From a virus: a DNA stretch of 30,059 nucleotides. The DNA is taken from positions 1 to 30,059 of the IMG/VR virus record IMGVR_UViG_3300036398_000090; one strand, 5' to 3'. The notes under the pieces were generated by a model. It worked only from the letters and a program-made list of their open reading frames with translations. It was not told where the DNA came from and searched no databases. The position numbers and the translations under genes were made by a program. Numbering within the stretch: position 1 is the first letter of the stretch; the number at the start of each line of letters is the position of its first letter. Below are positions 1,322 to 11,025 of this stretch, one piece after another.

Positions 1322-4300
1322 TGGCTTACAAAGTAAACTATGTCGTTGCAAAGACGAGTCCCAATCTTTATGCTGCTGCACAACAGGGTAACTTAAATCC
1401 AGAACAGACAACTCAACTAGAACAGTTTAGTTGGACTATTCAAAAAAATAAAAATTTAATGACGCTTCCTGTAGAAGATGCTCGTAAAGAGTTTTTTAAA
1501 CTAGAGACAGATGCACAGGATAAGATTAAGTTTCTTTATCCAGATGCTACATATGCTCAAGAAGCAGACACATTTAGCGACAACGTTGTTGGCGCATTAA
1601 AAGCAACTGGTAAGATAGCAGCAAGCCCGCTTATTGGTTTGTTTAAAGGTCTTACTGCGTGGACACGTATTATTAATACTCCATACCTTATGTCACGTCA
1701 GGCTGCACAAGGCGAAGGTTTTTTTAACAAGCAAACATTTACTGATGCTTGGGATGGTCGCCGTGTTTATGACAACGGTGCACTAGATGAAACTATTAAG
1801 TATTTTGGTGAAGAGCGTGTAAACGTAGCAAAAGGAATCCTTTCTGGATTAAAACCTGGAGAGATTGTTGCTACTGGTGGAGAAGTAACGCAAAAAATGC
1901 TTGATGCTTTACAAGAAGCATATAACGAGCCAGAGAAGTTTAAGCAGGTAATGGATGGCGTTAAGTACGCACAAGTTTCACCTGGTCGCGACATCTTACG
2001 TATGTTTGATACAAAGCCAACAAACGCAAGTTTGCAACAAGATTACATTGATGGCAAAACAAAATTTGCTTCTGGTGCTATTGATTTTATTTATCAGTTA
2101 GCAATTGACCCACTAACATATTTAACATTTGGTGGTTCTGCTCTTCTTAAGCGTGGAGACAAACTTGCTGCTATTGTGCAGAAGCACGGTACTGATGGTG
2201 TACGTCAAATTTTTGCAACTGAACCAGATGTTGTAAAACTATGGGACGGACTTGGTTCGGAAATTAAACGTCTTAAGGATGCTCCAGATACAGCAGCACG
2301 CTCTGTTGTTATCCGCGATATTAAAACAAACTTTCCTGCCTACAATAACGATGAAGCAATTAAGTTGCTTGAACGTAATGATATTACAGATGCTAAATCT
2401 GCGCTTGGATACTTTGAACAAGTAGAAAACGTACCTCTATTTCTTTCTGGTCGTGTTGATGGTATTCAATACTTCCGTAATGGTGTGGCTACTGCACGTA
2501 GCCAACGCCGTTTAGGTGAAGGTATGGGTCGCTGGCTAGATAGAGAACTTAACTACACTGGTCGCACAACAAAAGAAATTGCTGCAGATGGTGAAGACGC
2601 ATTTAAAACCTTATCTACATTAGGTAAAGAAGGCGAACTATTTGCTGAAAACATTGATGACATTAAAAAGTTTTACAAAGGTATGTCACGTAGGGAAAAA
2701 TTAGCCCAGCGTTTTGCACGCAGTCCACAAGGTGGCGTAATTCTTCTTGGAGAAGATGCCTACAAGACTGCAGATAATTTCCGTGCCGTAGCACGTCAAG
2801 TATTGCCACGCGATTTGGCTGATTTTATGACACAGAAGTTTATTGCTGCTGATGCAAATGACCAAGTTGTCATTATGCGTAATATGTATGTTGGTATTAT
2901 GCAGCGTTTTGGTCTTGATGGTCATCCAGATGGTAAAAAACTTATGGAAGAAATTCTCAAGTCTAAGTTTGGTGACAAAGAAGGCTTGTCTATTGTTTCT
3001 AAACTAGAAGTTAACCCAGCGTTTATTGATGAAGTCGGTAAAGTCGGTCTTAAAACAGAAGATGATGTACTTAAATATGAGTCATCTGGAATTATTCACC
3101 CATTTCAAGAGGCTGGTGCTATTGGTTCTCTCAATTACATTGAGATTGCACAAATGGCAGGTCGAATTAAAAGTAAGAAAAACCTTATTGGTGCAATGGG
3201 TGGGGCAACACAGTTAAAAATTGCAGATGATTTTGTAAACGCATGGTCTGTTCTCACTTTGTTCCCACGATTGGGTATCCGAAGTGCAATTGATGAAGGC
3301 TTTATGTTCCTTCTTACTGCACCTGGAAGAGAAGTATTTGACCTTGCGCTTCGCAGGGGACATCGTTTAGGTAAAATGGCTACTGCTTATACTGGTAGCA
3401 AAACAGCAGAGCCGCTTCGTCAAGGATTAAAGAAATGGCTAGGCGGAACACGTACATCTGAAACGCTAACACTTGCTGACCGCGCTTCTAAGCGAGCAAA
3501 AATTGCTAAAGAGCAAGGCATTAGCGAAGATATGGTTCGCAGTCTTGATGTTGCATTTGGTATGGCAGAAGATGCATCAATGCCATTCCGTAAAGGTGCT
3601 GATGACCTAGAGGCTGACTTAATTGTTGAAGGATTAGCGCATAGCGCACACCTTCTTAACTCTGCTACACGTTCTATGGCTGGTGCTGCTAGCATTACAG
3701 GTAAGTTTGAACGTGAAATTGTAGAAGAACTTATTGACCCTAACAACTATGACATGATGCTCAAGGACCTTGATGCAGTATCTGGTCGTGGTGGTCAGGC
3801 TATATCTACCACTGACCTAGCAGATGCAAGAATCTTTGGTGGTCGCGGAGTAGCAACGGTTCACTTTGAAAACTGGATTAAGCGTTTCTATGGAAATGCT
3901 AAGTCACTAGATGGTGATGATGGTGCTCGTTTATTTGACCCTTCAACTAACTTTCTTGCTAACAATGGACTTAGAACTGCTGCTGATTTTCGTAAGGCTA
4001 AAGATGAAGCCCTTGCTGCTATCGGCATACGCCGCAATACTGAACTTATTGAAGAAATTGGCGAAGATGGTGTTAAGTTACTTAAGCCAAGTTCTAGTTA
4101 TGTTGTTGTTGACGCTAAGGCTGTCAAAGAGTTTATTCAAATGTCATCTCGCAGCAGCGAACTTGGGCAACGTGGCGTTAGCCAAGTAGATATTGTTGTT
4201 GACCAAGTTGACCGCATACTTCTTGACCTATACTCAACATTCCACGGTTCTGCTACTAAGTTTAATGATAAATTATTTGATGCCGTTAAGTCACGTCATA

Positions 4301-6398: not shown

Positions 6399-7868
6399 AT
6401 GGCTGAACAACCAAAGAACTCGCGCATTGTACAAATTATTAACTTTGGCGTTGATAAGCGTATTCCACTTGGTGTTGTTAATCAAGTCATTGACAAAAAT
6501 ACAGGTTATCTTATTGGTTATATGCGTGGCGATAAGTTCTATCAACTTAATACTGATGCTGCTGAAGTAGATGCTGCTCTTGTTCAAGAAGAACAAAGAG
6601 TTACAACAGAAAGAAAAAAGGCTGAAGTTCTACAAGAACAAACAGACCCATTCTTTAAACCATTTACTGATATGAAACTTGGCGTAACCGTTGACCCTGA
6701 AACAGGTAAAACAAAGGTTATGAACAAGGATGGTGAAGTATTTATCTACGTAGGTCCTGCTAAAAATAAACCTGCACCACGTGGTAGTTATCTTAAAACA
6801 CAAGGTATGGAAAAAGATAACAAAATAGATGTTATTAATAATTTTGATACCATTCGTAAAAATATAATTAACGATGCAACTGCTACACCTGGTGGTATAG
6901 ATGCATTGTTTGAAAAGTTATACAAGAATGGTTCACTTTCTGAAGAAACATATAAGTCAAAGAATATATCAGCAGATGATTTTAATACAGGTTTGCTATA
7001 TACTGTTCGTAAGTTTTCAATTGAAACAGTAGACAAGTACACAATTGATGGTGTTAAAAAGCCAATGGAGTTTGGCGAATACTTATCAATGGGCTTTAAG
7101 GCTGCTAAACCAACAAGCAAAACTGCATATGAATCAATTGTTACTAAGCGTCAAGACGCAGCAGAAGATGCTGACCAGTTCTTTATGGCTAATGTAGGGC
7201 GCAATGCTACTAAAGAAGAAGAGAACGCATATTATGAATTACTTCGTGATGCAGAAAAGAAAGCAGTTCAGTCTGTTACTACTAAGTATGACGCTGAAGG
7301 TAACAGGATGGGTAGTACTCAGACTGGTGAACTTATGTCTGACTTGGACAAAACCTTACTCCTTGGCAAGGTTGCTGGAAAGGCTATTCAAAACAGCGAT
7401 ATCAATACATTGCTCAGTGCTGGAGGCTCGGCGGCTAAAGATGTAAACTCTATTCTTGCATACGCTAAGAACTATGGAGTCGTCCTTACTAAAGAACAGG
7501 CTATAAGTTATGTAGCAACTAACCTTAAAAAGGGTCAGAACGTAGATGCAACTAGAGCAAAGATTTTACAGATTGCTAAGTCACAACCACAGTATGCTGC
7601 TATTGCAGACAAGATTACAAATGATGTAAGTGTCAAGGAACTTGCTGGTAATTATATTTACCAGAAGGCACAGACACTTGAACTTAATATGGATGCTATT
7701 GATGTATTCGATAAAGATATTCAAGATGGTTTAACTGGCAACCTATCTATGACAGATTTCAACAAAAGACTACGCAAGAACTCTGCATGGGCTAATACAA
7801 AGAACGCTAAAGAAGAAGCCGCTAACTATGCGACTGACATTCTTAAGTCGTTCGGATTGATGGGATAA
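6399..7868 (+). CDS. Putative virion structural protein, 489 aa
   Basis: Unrecognised. ATG at 6399 with SD GAGAGGA (6387-6393) inside the end of the previous gene. The N-terminus (IVQIINFGVDKRIPLGVVNQ) looks like a small beta domain. A Lys/Glu-rich helix near residues 60-80 follows, then an alpha-rich body with many Ala/Lys/Asn, ending KSFGLMG. It has no signal peptide, TM segment or Cys cluster. It lies between the 1691-aa protein and a 443-aa coiled-coil protein, and the three may form one functional unit such as an internal core or ejection apparatus. That grouping is positional inference only. It ends in a TAATG overlap with the next gene. Confidence 0.6.
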   Translation: MAEQPKNSRIVQIINFGVDKRIPLGVVNQVIDKNTGYLIGYMRGDKFYQLNTDAAEVDAALVQEEQRVTTERKKAEVLQEQTDPFFKPFTDMKLGVTVDPETGKTKVMNKDGEVFIYVGPAKNKPAPRGSYLKTQGMEKDNKIDVINNFDTIRKNIINDATATPGGIDALFEKLYKNGSLSEETYKSKNISADDFNTGLLYTVRKFSIETVDKYTIDGVKKPMEFGEYLSMGFKAAKPTSKTAYESIVTKRQDAAEDADQFFMANVGRNATKEEENAYYELLRDAEKKAVQSVTTKYDAEGNRMGSTQTGELMSDLDKTLLLGKVAGKAIQNSDINTLLSAGGSAAKDVNSILAYAKNYGVVLTKEQAISYVATNLKKGQNVDATRAKILQIAKSQPQYAAIADKITNDVSVKELAGNYIYQKAQTLELNMDAIDVFDKDIQDGLTGNLSMTDFNKRLRKNSAWANTKNAKEEAANYATDILKSFGLMG

Positions 7869-9199
7869 TGGCTGACACATCAAAGCAGGAAATAGCAGCA
7901 GCAAAAAGGGCTGCAGAGGCAAAGAAAGCAGCAGATGCAAAAAAAATAGCAGACGCTAAAGCAAAAGCAAATGCTGCAGAAAAGGCTAAAGAAAAAGCCG
8001 CAAACGTAAAACTACTTGCGCAAGCCCAAGCATTGCTTGCTAAACAAAAGGCTACACTTGCTTCTCTTGAAAAGTCACAAGCAGAAACTAAAAAGTTTTT
8101 AACAGAACCAGGCATGCCTTTGCCATCAAGTTTTAAGCCTTATATTAATGTTACACCTGCACCATCTGACCAGCAGATTGGACCAATGATTGGTCCTAAT
8201 TTAGGACGCGATGCTGCATATGCTATGGGCGCAGGAATAAAACTAACTCCAGAACAACAGACTGCTGCAGAAGCATTTAATGTTAGTAAGGGTTTGAATC
8301 CTGATGGAACTAAACCTGTTGAGAAAAAAGAAATTACCAAAGAAACACGCGATGCATATGCATTGCTCGAAGCAGCCTTTAAAGAATATGGACTAGACAG
8401 TTTAGTTCCTATCATTCGTCAATATATGGAAGATGACCTTGGACCAGAGCAGGCTAAACTTAAACTTAGAAGTGAACCTGTTTATAAGCAAAGATTTAAA
8501 GGTAATGAATTAAGACTTGGTAAAGGTCTTAATGCTCTTAGTGAAGTAGACTATCTTGAACTTGAAAATGATTATAGCGAAACACTTAGGTCATATGGTT
8601 TAGCAGATTACTTTGGTACAGTAACAGATGCCAGTAGTCGTCTTGCTCGTCAGCAAAAAATGGCTGATGTTATTGGTAATAACATATCAGCACTAGAGTT
8701 TAAAGACCGCATTAAGACAGTAGTTACACGTGTAAATATGGCAGATGCAAATGTCAAGAGTGAACTTAAGGCTTTTTATAATATTACTGATACTGATTTA
8801 ATTAAGTATTTTTTAAATCCAGCAGAAGGTTCTGATAGATTAAAAGAGAAAGTAACTGCTGCTGAAATTAGTGCAGCATCTATTACTCAGGGGCTTGGTC
8901 AAACAAGCCTTGGCACAGCAGAAGAACTTGCTCGCCTTGGTATTGATAGAGCGGAGGCACTTGCTGGCTATGCAAAGATTGCTGAATATTTACCTACATC
9001 AGAAAAACTTAGTTCTATTTATAAAGAACAAGGCATTACATACAATAAAGCAACAGGTGAAGAAGAAGAATTTAAGGGATTGGCTTCTGCTAAGCGCAAA
9101 CGTGAACGTTTGAAGGAAAGCGAAACATCTACTTTTGCTGGTTCATCTGGAACATCGCAATTAAGTCTTAAAAATAAGACGACTGCGGGACAAATCTAA
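7868..9199 (+). CDS. Putative virion protein with N-terminal Ala/Lys coiled coil, 443 aa
   Basis: The first about 65 residues are almost entirely Ala, Lys, Glu, Asp and Gln (AAAKRAAEAKKAADAKKIAD), a long single helix or coiled coil. After a Pro-containing linker (about 80-105) comes a folded alpha-helical domain. It includes EAAFKEYGLDSLVPIIRQYM, a YKQRFKGNELR stretch, DYLELENDYSETLRSYGLAD and later ASITQGLGQTSLGTAEELAR. I recall similar helical stretches (Y..L...Y...L...GLP) in virion proteins of other phages but cannot name a family. The ATG overlaps the upstream stop (TAATG). The gene ends just before the structured leader at 9201, so it closes a transcription or translation unit. Confidence 0.6.
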   Translation: MADTSKQEIAAAKRAAEAKKAADAKKIADAKAKANAAEKAKEKAANVKLLAQAQALLAKQKATLASLEKSQAETKKFLTEPGMPLPSSFKPYINVTPAPSDQQIGPMIGPNLGRDAAYAMGAGIKLTPEQQTAAEAFNVSKGLNPDGTKPVEKKEITKETRDAYALLEAAFKEYGLDSLVPIIRQYMEDDLGPEQAKLKLRSEPVYKQRFKGNELRLGKGLNALSEVDYLELENDYSETLRSYGLADYFGTVTDASSRLARQQKMADVIGNNISALEFKDRIKTVVTRVNMADANVKSELKAFYNITDTDLIKYFLNPAEGSDRLKEKVTAAEISAASITQGLGQTSLGTAEELARLGIDRAEALAGYAKIAEYLPTSEKLSSIYKEQGITYNKATGEEEEFKGLASAKRKRERLKESETSTFAGSSGTSQLSLKNKTTAGQI

Positions 9200-9200
9200 A

Positions 9201-9312
9201 ATCCTATCGGACCCACCAGCCCCGATAGCGTAGAAGACTGGTAGTAAGAGCCAGACTAGTTCCCCGACTAGAACCTGAGGCTTGCGATTCAAACGAATAG
9301 AAGGGTGGGTTG
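9201..9312 (+). promoter_or_regulatory. Structured 5' leader upstream of scaffold gene (candidate cis-regulatory RNA)
   Basis: This is the longest non-coding gap of the rightward block. Seen directly: hairpin 1 CTATCGG (9204-9210) / CCGATAG (9222-9228), 7 perfect pairs with an 11-nt loop; hairpin 2 CTGG (9238-9241) / CCAG (9251-9254); hairpin 3 CTAGT/ACTAG around a TCCCCG loop (about 9256-9271); hairpin 4 ATTC-AAAC-GAAT (9287-9298). The loop of hairpin 1 (ACCCACC, 9211-9217) is perfectly complementary to GGTGGGT at 9304-9310, which overlaps the end of the scaffold SD (AAGGG, 9301-9305). A pseudoknot would therefore occlude the ribosome binding site. I see no convincing -35/-10 pair. The function is inferred; it could instead be a transcript-processing or early-packaging element. 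Confidence 0.55.
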
Positions 9313-9314
9313 CT

Positions 9315-9794
9315 ATGAGCAACAACTACTGGGATGAAGACGAAGACGACCTAGATACTGACAACGAAGTGCAGATGGACGGAAGTGACTTACTTAAAAA
9401 GTTACGGAAAGCCAAGCGCAACGATGAAAAGCGTATCAAAGAACTCACTGAGCAACTTGAGCAATTATCCAAGACGCAGCGTGAGCGTACAGTCAAAGAA
9501 GTCCTAGACAAGAAGGGTGTCAATCCAAAGGCACAAAGATTAATCCTAAAAGACTTGGATGATATTACCGAAGAGTCAGTTAATTCTTGGCTTGAAGATA
9601 ATGGAGACTTGTTTGGATTAACACAGCCAGAGGTAAATCAAGAGCAAGAACTAAATCGTGCAGCCTTACGGCAGCAAGATGTAGTTACTCAACTTGGTAT
9701 GACCCCTGACCGAGCAGATGATTTATTGAATAGAATTAACAGTGCGGAAACCGCAGAAGAACTCCATTCAATTATCTACTCTCAAAGACAGTAA
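9315..9794 (+). CDS. Capsid scaffolding protein
   Basis: 159 aa from ATG 9315, which has AAGGG (9301-9305) at 9-nt spacing. A TTG at 9282 in the same frame would add 11 residues but lies inside the structured leader and has no SD. The protein is very acidic at the N-terminus (YWDEDEDDLDTDNE). It then has a strongly charged coiled coil (about residues 24-60, KKLRKAKRNDEKRIKELTEQ) and a helical C-terminal region. This is the standard scaffold pattern: a coiled coil that guides procapsid assembly and is then expelled or degraded. It lies directly before the major capsid gene, as scaffold genes usually do. Identification is by composition and synteny, not by a motif. Confidence 0.78.
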   Translation: MSNNYWDEDEDDLDTDNEVQMDGSDLLKKLRKAKRNDEKRIKELTEQLEQLSKTQRERTVKEVLDKKGVNPKAQRLILKDLDDITEESVNSWLEDNGDLFGLTQPEVNQEQELNRAALRQQDVVTQLGMTPDRADDLLNRINSAETAEELHSIIYSQRQ

Positions 9795-9831: not shown

Positions 9832-11025
9832 ATGCCTAACGCATTCACAAGTACAGGGTCCGCCACACTCGGCGGTACCTCTGGTGGTGCAGGTCTAGTC
9901 CAGCAAGCGTATGACCGCTTACTGGAGTTTGCTCTTCGTTCAGAACCGCTAATCCGTTCAGTCGCAGATAAGACACCTGCTCGCCAATCAATCCCAGGCT
10001 CAACCGTTGTTCTACAGCGTTACGTTGACTTGGCTAAAAATACTACTCCTCTGACAGAAACAACTGACCCAGATGCAGTAGCACTATCAACACCAACCAA
10101 TGTTCCTATTACTCTACAAGAGTACGGAAACTCTGTGTTGGTAACTCGCGCACTGGAACTCTTCAGCCTTGCTGATGTAGACCCAGCAATCGCAAACATC
10201 ATTGCTTTCAACCTAGCAGATTCTATTGATGAGGTCGCAATGACAACATTGCGTGCTGGTCAGAATAAAATCTTTGGTGGCAACGCTACATCAACCGTAA
10301 CAGTTGATGCTTCAGACACAATTGACTCAGCGGACATCCGCAAGGCAGTTGCTAAGTTGCGTTCTAACAAGGCTGTTGGACGCAAGGGTTCACTCTACTG
10401 GGCTGGTATCCACCCAGAAGTATCACACGACCTACGTGCCGAGTCCTCTTCAGGACAGGGCTGGTTGCTACCTAACCAATACGGTTCTTCACAGGACCGC
10501 ATTTGGGCAGGAGAAATCGGTAACTACGAAGGCGCATACTATGTTGAATCAGCACGTATGTACAACGCTAAGACTGGTGCAAACCAGACAGCACTCGCAA
10601 CTGCATCAGCAGTAAGCGGTGCTTCAGGTGCATTTACAATCGTAGCAGCAAACGCTGCTTTCGGTGGACGTGCTGAAGTTGGAGATAAAATCTCTGGTAC
10701 AAACGTAGGTACTGATGCAAAGATTACAGCAATTTCTGTTGGTGCAACAAACACTACATATACTGTAGACGTTGCTAACTCAGGAACCGTAGGAACTAAT
10801 ACTCTTACAGTAACTCCAGTAACACGTGTTTATAACACAATCGTATGTGGACAGCAAGCAATGGCACAAGCCGTTGCTGAAGAACCACACACAGTTATCG
10901 GACCAGTAGTTGACAAGTTAATGCGTCACCGCCCAATGGGTTGGTACGGCGTACTTGGCTTTGCTATCTACCGTGAAGATGCATTGTATCGCCTAGAAAC
11001 AGGCTCATCAATCGCTGCTCTTTAG
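9832..11025 (+). CDS. Major capsid protein, N4-gp56 family (HK97 fold)
   Basis: 397 aa with a near-perfect SD (GGAGGTGA). Recognisable N4-gp56-family landmarks: KTPARQSIPGSTVVLQRYVD near residue 47, TTPLTETTDPDAVALS near 67-83, the ITLQEYGNSVLVTRALELFS segment near 92-111, then LADSIDEVAMTTLRAGQ. Further on are GIHPEVSHDLRAE near 192 and VVDKLMRHRPMGWYGVLGFA near 360-380. This subunit builds the icosahedral shell. A Thr/Ala/Gly-rich stretch (about residues 245-330) interrupts the usual path between the ARMYN and RVYNTIV elements. It has the look of a small beta domain that could be displayed on the capsid surface. The gene sits after the scaffold and before a GC-rich hairpin, the usual arrangement for a highly expressed capsid gene. 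Confidence 0.9.
   Translation: MPNAFTSTGSATLGGTSGGAGLVQQAYDRLLEFALRSEPLIRSVADKTPARQSIPGSTVVLQRYVDLAKNTTPLTETTDPDAVALSTPTNVPITLQEYGNSVLVTRALELFSLADVDPAIANIIAFNLADSIDEVAMTTLRAGQNKIFGGNATSTVTVDASDTIDSADIRKAVAKLRSNKAVGRKGSLYWAGIHPEVSHDLRAESSSGQGWLLPNQYGSSQDRIWAGEIGNYEGAYYVESARMYNAKTGANQTALATASAVSGASGAFTIVAANAAFGGRAEVGDKISGTNVGTDAKITAISVGATNTTYTVDVANSGTVGTNTLTVTPVTRVYNTIVCGQQAMAQAVAEEPHTVIGPVVDKLMRHRPMGWYGVLGFAIYREDALYRLETGSSIAAL

Follow-up and report, generated by a model that had tools for sequence, protein, structure and literature searches.

A conserved pseudoknotted leader RNA before a phage scaffold gene, with a possible role in gating scaffold translation

Why is a tightly packed run of phage genes interrupted immediately before the scaffold gene? 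The question arises in the virus record IMGVR_UViG_3300036398_000090, whose 30,059 bases were studied on the + strand and are called the window here. The gap (9200-9314) extends from the stop of an upstream gene of unassigned function (7868..9199, + strand, phrog_8424; stop codon TAA at 9197-9199, 4 nt before the first helix, P1) to the start of the scaffold gene (9315..9794, + strand, 159 aa, phrog_7813), which is followed by the gene of the major capsid protein (9832..11025, + strand, phrog_1357, PF13252). A leader RNA spanning 9204-9323 is, judging from comparative evidence, a real and deeply conserved structured RNA. Our best explanation, to which we give a probability of roughly 0.5, is that this RNA acts in cis on the scaffold-capsid message and gates scaffold translation, plausibly by feedback from a head protein.

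The scaffold gene is named on two grounds: profile-profile homology across three clades (probability 100, 97.6 and 98.0), and a Streptomyces phage homologue annotated as scaffolding protein in Dennebes, RetrieverFever, Vorvolakos, Gremlin23 and JPandJE. Relatives were collected from IMG/VR by four scans with capsid proteins and two with DNA patterns, and by one genome scan. Clade 1 comprises two of the capsid scans and nearly all of the first pattern scan; one of these capsid scans and this pattern scan contribute the matches listed for them. Clades 2 and 3 come from one further capsid scan each, and clade 3 includes Streptomyces phages. For the comparison of clades 1 and 2, 363 raw matches were reduced by 31 (30 chance matches recognized by eye, and L107, which is cut before the start codon) and identical leaders were merged, which left 253 unique leaders. 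This set required a CCCC motif and, where the start is in view, an acidic protein start; a separate annotation of clade-1 leaders by anchors, covering 166 of 169, did not. In other steps, one row selection took 253 of 259 rows, and one excluded L044, L046, L047, L048 and L050 (short or deleted leaders) as well as L081, which is the window itself.

The RNA begins with the P1 hairpin (9204..9228, + strand), in which CTATCGG at 9204-9210 pairs with CCGATAG at 9222-9228 around an 11-nt loop (9211-9221). This 7-bp hairpin had already been proposed from the window alone and is confirmed by the relatives, where it is conserved with changes on both sides at all 7 pairs; its percentage of pairing is partly given by construction, since P1 was picked as the best helix. 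The loop measures 11 nt in 163 of the 166 annotated clade-1 leaders. Inside it lies the 5′ strand of a pseudoknot, ACCAG (9215..9219, + strand), which pairs with CTGGT (9238..9242, + strand) downstream of the hairpin.

The evidence for this pseudoknot is exchange of its two strands in concert. Of 253 unique clade-1/2 leaders, 251 have a 4-mer cognate to the loop strand, compared with a mean of 120 and a maximum of 139 in 1000 shuffles. Four interchangeable versions account for these helices (CCAG/CTGG in 166, CCGG/CCGG in 42, CTGG/CCAG in 32 and TCGG/CCGA in 11 of the 253), and the loop strand, ACCAG in the window, reads ACCGG, ATCGG or ACTGG in relatives. The outermost, fifth pair, A-U, is kept in 128 of 163 leaders. 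We also mapped both strands on a capsid tree, for which 224 capsids were reduced to 180 and where L317 was unresolved in the pseudoknot mapping. On this tree we counted 26 changes of the 3′ strand, 25 of the loop strand and 26 of their joint state, with a mismatch in 1 of 179, against a mean of 60 and a minimum of 55 changes when labels were shuffled. By this count, pair type and partner have switched in step some 26 times.

Downstream of the pseudoknot, P3 (9244..9285, + strand; GTAAG at 9244-9248 with CTTGC at 9281-9285) encloses P4 (9252..9277, + strand), which consists of CAG/CTG at 9252-9254/9275-9277 and CTAGTT/GACTAG at 9256-9261/9266-9271. The sequence-only reading had described three further small hairpins in this region; in the relatives these elements form one compound arm. 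All five positions of P3 are paired in 166 of 166 annotated clade-1 leaders, with changes on both sides at three of the five. The CCCC loop of P4 (9262..9265, + strand) is present in the same 166 of 166 and stays in the loop while stem and loop size vary.

Statistics on the whole structure agree with this picture. In a 52-sequence alignment, 95.6% of the structure cells are paired versus 76.2% after shuffling, the covariation score is 0.592 versus 0.199 in shuffled alignments and at most 0.084 in slid controls, and 19 of 29 pairs have changed on both sides. Alignment A4 was fitted to P1, P3 and P4; the pseudoknot and the hairpin at the start codon lie outside the fit. G-U pairs, for example 19 U-G at one position of P3, are in keeping with a structured + strand RNA and less so with its complement. 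Folding of the window alone is unremarkable in energy (z -1.23; 23 of 200 shuffles equal or better it), and the minimum-energy fold includes P1 and the P4 stem and lacks P3. This fold also pairs the 3′ strand of P3 with the ribosome binding site, a candidate that we rejected: by eye the pairing is lost when P3 changes from GCUU to GUCU with the start region unchanged, and a comparison of pairing energies between cognate and swapped leaders gave no support for it.

The final element, absent from the elements named by the sequence-only reading, is a hairpin that holds the start codon in its loop (P5, 9309..9323, + strand; GUUGCU-AUG-AGCAAC), so that the sequence before the AUG pairs with codons 2-3. 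Other leaders carry variants such as GUUGC-UAUG-GCAAC, GGUUG-CUAUGAC-CAACC, AUAUUGC-GAUGA-GCAAUGU and (U)GGAC-UAU-GUCC(A). Under a fixed definition (at least 4 bp, with a 3-7 nt loop over the start codon), P5 is found at every one of the 248 scaffold starts of clades 1 and 2 versus 15 of 211 capsid starts in the same genomes. Swapping upstream and coding parts between phages lowers the count to a mean of 197 and a maximum of 207 of 248. The best helix scores 14.07 at scaffold starts against 10.62 in swapped sequences (maximum 11.37), a figure that includes five starts set one ATG too far upstream and 37 leaders whose best helix is longer and in another register; with corrected starts, a helix score of at least 12 is reached at 234 of 248 scaffold starts versus 15 of 211 capsid starts. 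Protein conservation alone is insufficient to explain this pairing because Ser-2 is encoded by AGC in most of clade 1 and by UCC in clade 2, with matching changes in the upstream arm (GUUGCU and GGAC, respectively). The spacing is also narrow: in 248 leaders the distance from P3 to the AUG is 25-35 nt.

Could the leader hide the Shine-Dalgarno (SD) sequence (AGAAGGG, 9299..9305, + strand)? In relatives the first GGG or GGA lies 11-15 nt from the AUG. The sequence-only reading proposed that the P1 loop hides the SD by a 7-nt pairing, and its elements are exactly as it described: the loop segment ACCCACC (9211-9217) has a perfect complement, GGTGGGT (9304-9310), shortly before the ATG at 9315, and such a complement in the 26 nt before the AUG arises in 0.8% of mononucleotide shuffles of that stretch, which made it noteworthy in a single genome. 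The pairing is not conserved in relatives, however. Of 163 unique clade-1 leaders whose P1 loop has 11 nt, 15 keep seven contiguous pairs, with G-U allowed; total pairing in the 52-sequence alignment equals that of shuffles (73.9% versus 72.9%); two of the central pairs are broken in 31 and 42 of the 52 sequences; and the fourth loop base varies freely (G, C, A or T) while the SD varies little. Moreover, ACC, the second half of ACCCACC, overlaps the pseudoknot strand ACCAG, and the loop pairs with CTGGT at 9238-9242 instead. Nor do the leaders show coevolution with the SD: cognate leader bodies pair with their own SD no better than with those of other phages (-9.61 versus -9.83 kcal/mol in clade 1, -7.88 versus -7.70 kcal/mol in clade 2), and the same holds for the initiation region (-17.88 versus -18.06 kcal/mol in clade 1, -14.78 versus -15.05 kcal/mol in clade 2). 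Occlusion of the SD by the P1 loop is hardly tenable. A different contact, in which the CCCC loop of P4 would pair with the GGG of the SD and hide it, could even form part of our best explanation. Both motifs co-occur in 248 of 248 leaders, and the loop keeps its CCCC in stems and loops of varying size; but CCCC was a selection criterion for the 248/253 set, though not for the 166/166 count, the contact comprises only 3-4 bp and its flanks do not covary (UCCC occurs with GGGU in 86 of 248). We consider it highly unlikely. Among the leaders compared, no conserved pairing of the pseudoknot or the leader with the SD, of the kind found in SD-sequestering riboswitches, was detected; CCCC and GGG are both invariant and lie outside the reach of covariation. 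As far as comparison indicates, the SD lies outside every conserved helix. Plain folding, a method blind to the pseudoknot, gives the SD a mean unpaired probability of 0.35, or 0.41 with P1 and P3 imposed (80 sampled leaders), and the AUG one of 0.83-0.90.

The RNA is tightly linked to the scaffold gene. Of the 221 clade-1/2 capsid loci whose sequence reaches 700 nt or more beyond the capsid start on its upstream side, 220 carry it ahead of scaffold; 216 were detected by script (65/67, 76/76 and 75/78) and 4 by eye. Inspection of the five script misses shows the RNA in L328, L343 and L360 and, in inverted orientation, in L062; L046 is without it. In L062 (595-1184) the scaffold gene is flipped along with its RNA with respect to the capsid gene, possibly as a contig artefact. 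In L046 (~3450-3487) P1 to P4 are missing between short repeats while the SD and the start hairpin are kept, which may reflect either natural loss or an assembly error. The DNA-pattern scan gives the same association from the other direction: a capsid gene follows 591-1000 nt downstream in 67 of 80 loci, and the remaining 13 are, by eye, 5 copies at contig ends and 8 chance matches. These 80 loci come from 83 stretches, the other three of which (L532-L534) show the RNA and the protein start by eye. A pseudoknotted RNA directly before scaffold and capsid, as had been suspected from the window, is thus shared by related phages and carries compensatory changes.

The leader also seems, from the sequences compared, to sit at the 5′ edge of a head module that has been exchanged. 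A DNA match to OX376640.1 begins at position 9200 of the window. In the loci of the first capsid scan, identity is 44-99% for scaffold and 65-99% for capsid; for the gene upstream it often drops to 33-53%, or that gene was not detected. Among the 209 of 253 clade-1/2 leaders in which it could be resolved, the median distance from the preceding stop codon to P1 is 7 nt. A local search for promoters and terminators yielded a single promoter-like and a single terminator-like site, which does not exceed the yield of shuffled sequences. One relative, L363 (G001), is an Actinomycetota MAG contig, RHAS01000055.1, which carries the capsid gene and the RNA and offers weak evidence of the host phylum of clade 1. 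A search of 396 genomes of this phylum with model R2, which applied stricter filters and scored part of each genome's candidates, matched this MAG only, already known with its capsid gene.

How far does the RNA extend beyond its own clade? Model R1, built from 13 clade-1 sequences, gives one match per matched locus in clades 2 and 3 (for example L355 at E = 1e-12, L445 at 1.3e-7, L446 at 1.9e-6 and L409 at 8.4e-6); at E ≤1 it matches 27 of the 40 loci searched, the weakest of them partially. Model R2 matches 15 of 22 loci, including the Streptomyces phages Manuel (9e-8) and Immanuel3 (3.2e-5), whose laboratory hosts are S. lividans and S. griseus, respectively; these two matches are not fully independent since R2 was trained on A5, which contains a partial match from Streptomyces phage Kumquat (L365). 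R2 has no match in FlowerPower, Stella, Abafar and JXY1 (Streptomyces Beephvirinae), in which the layout is seen by eye and, in FlowerPower, Stella and JXY1, P3, P4 and the pseudoknot are found by script. The distant capsid relatives BRock (L371) and Pascal (L372) yielded no model match, and records outside the Beephvirinae (Lemuria, D29 and others) gave short matches. In seven Streptomyces phages the same layout is visible by eye between a tRNA array and the scaffold gene, with pseudoknots of the types GTCAG/CTGAC, GCCAG/CTGGC and GCTGG/CCAGC. The idea in the sequence-only reading of similar motifs before actinophage scaffold genes is borne out to the extent that a structured RNA is present there, cultured Streptomyces phages included.

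Across clade 3, the script finds P3 and P4, with CCC[CT] required, in 50 of 76 loci; seven of the 26 misses (L409, L446, L424, L426, L434, L450 and L451) are matched by the models. A pseudoknot of at least 4 bp occurs in 35 of 42 unique loci (shuffled mean 16.6, maximum 23), and one of at least 5 bp in 26 of 42 (shuffled mean 8.9, maximum 16). The start hairpin takes forms such as GGUCA-CUA-UGACC, GAGUCA-UCA-UGACUC, GGACA-UCA-UGUCC and GCUC-UCAU-GAGC, and is weak or absent in many loci, a score of at least 12 being reached in 20 of 60. The tRNA survey of this clade covered L364-L370 together with 60 loci from the range L373-L452. Of the 60 loci listed, 44 have a tRNA ending where the RNA begins, its identity differing between loci, and in the seven Streptomyces phages the abutting tRNA closes a series of 13-21 tRNA genes annotated in the stretch examined. 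No tRNA was found in 215 clade-1/2 loci. The part of PMC11536984 consulted describes Abafar and its tRNAs and does not contain the words scaffold or structured RNA.

Several known systems invite comparison. In the RNA phage MS2, the coat operator is a single hairpin located at a gene's start codon and bound by the coat dimer. In clades 1 and 2 the studied leader likewise encloses its start codon in a conserved hairpin (in clade 3 as given above), but here the hairpin sits in a larger RNA and the phages are dsDNA phages. In the SAM-II and preQ1-II riboswitches an H-type pseudoknot in the 5′ leader includes the SD, whereas the pseudoknot of the studied leader does not. A 2017 survey reportedly listed 224 candidate RNAs. 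For P22 we know of no described leader pseudoknot. Its scaffolding gene is of the same kind as ours and provides a precedent for scaffold feedback, its autoregulation being attributed to Wyckoff and Casjens 1985 in the cited passage of PMC5744158. According to the relevant part of PMC3014915, T4 gp32 binds a leader pseudoknot and represses its own translation. The gene 32 leaders of T4, T2 and RB69 resemble ours in placing a pseudoknot upstream of a phage gene's ribosome binding site, and an H-type pseudoknot is indeed found there in the studied leader. In T4, an unstructured A+U-rich stretch connects the pseudoknot to the binding site (PMC3014915, same part); the studied leader has no such tract and the P3/P4 arm fills its place, followed by the start-codon hairpin. 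The genes themselves are unrelated. The manA and wcaG motifs of cyanophages are candidate cis-regulatory RNAs of phages that were found by comparison, as stated in the portion of PMC2864571 consulted; their genes and hosts differ from ours, and their structures were compared with the leader by Rfam scans alone, with negative results.

Rfam 15 at gathering scores matched only tRNAs in the window and 17 relatives (8 + 9 loci), the nine loci giving 29 matches, all of them tRNA genes. At E ≤5 the leader itself gave one chance hit, to CRISPR-DR12 (E 3.4; 13.7 bits versus a gathering score of 37). Among the titles and abstract openings listed from an open-access library, no description of the leader RNA was found. 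As an operator in a phage leader it is of a known kind; as an RNA family, and in its link to capsid morphogenesis, the leader appears new.

How might such an RNA work? In the mechanism that we favor, the pseudoknot domain would serve as a fixed receptor, with the gate formed jointly by the SD and the start-codon hairpin. The receptor would most likely be bound by a head-assembly protein, either free scaffold or unassembled coat. Binding would stabilize the closed initiation site and lower scaffold synthesis until scaffold is drawn into procapsids; in the unbound state, ribosomes would open the weak start hairpin. That the controlled step is translation is somewhat more likely than not, and a head protein as the ligand has a little less than an even chance. 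Translational or assembly-linked control, as the sequence-only reading had imagined it, remains plausible in view of the start-codon hairpin, the narrow distance to the AUG and the linkage to scaffold; the part that does not hold is concealment of the SD by the P1 loop. Several points count against our best explanation. The predicted coupling of receptor to gate would have to operate in leader bodies that lack coevolved pairing with the SD or initiation region, and the strongly acidic N-terminus of the scaffold protein does not suggest an obvious RNA-binding surface. Plain folding leaves the AUG mostly unpaired and the SD mostly paired, in varied ways, and so lends no support to an open SD in the ligand-free state. 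In addition, the clade 3 start hairpin is often weak or absent, and L046 keeps its SD and start hairpin without the RNA.

The main rival is an element of the mRNA 5′ end, in which the pseudoknot would protect the processed scaffold-capsid mRNA from 5′ decay or define the cut. It is serious because of the abutting tRNA in one clade: excision of that tRNA would leave P1 near the mRNA 5′ end, and in clades 1 and 2 P1 likewise starts just past the upstream stop. It leaves the start-codon hairpin and the narrow distance from P3 to the AUG unexplained, however, and no tRNA was found in the 215 clade-1/2 loci; we consider it unlikely, and it may act alongside translational control. The leader could also be constitutive, recruiting ribosomes to raise scaffold and capsid translation with no switch involved. 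A good SD, steady geometry and the high demand for head proteins would suit this view, but a hairpin conserved over the start codon (248/248) would usually lower initiation, which makes it decidedly improbable. A compact pseudoknot with conserved unpaired residues at gene boundaries might further recall a self-cleaving ribozyme, a small-molecule riboswitch or a trans-acting or packaged RNA; the lack of an Rfam match to any such family and the linkage to scaffold render these options very unlikely. Returning to translational gating by a head protein, a bolder and more doubtful form of this reading would see the leader as a new RNA class, a capsid-assembly sensor in dsDNA phages of actinobacteria in which free scaffold or coat would bind the pseudoknot and lock the start hairpin, so that scaffold translation would follow procapsid demand, with one ancestral RNA inherited by three capsid clades and, where a tRNA abuts, its excision setting the mRNA 5′ end.

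A widespread pseudoknot leader is here tied to capsid morphogenesis and has relatives in cultured Streptomyces phages, which makes the matching of scaffold and coat synthesis directly testable in a dsDNA phage. The leader also adds an RNA family that Rfam 15 scans missed, and can serve to flag scaffold genes that lack annotation and to pinpoint where their translation truly starts. In Immanuel3, gp36 (L364 1932, record 18067) is annotated with a GTG start that lies inside the RNA; the position of the RNA would place the start at an ATG 36 nt downstream of the annotated GTG.
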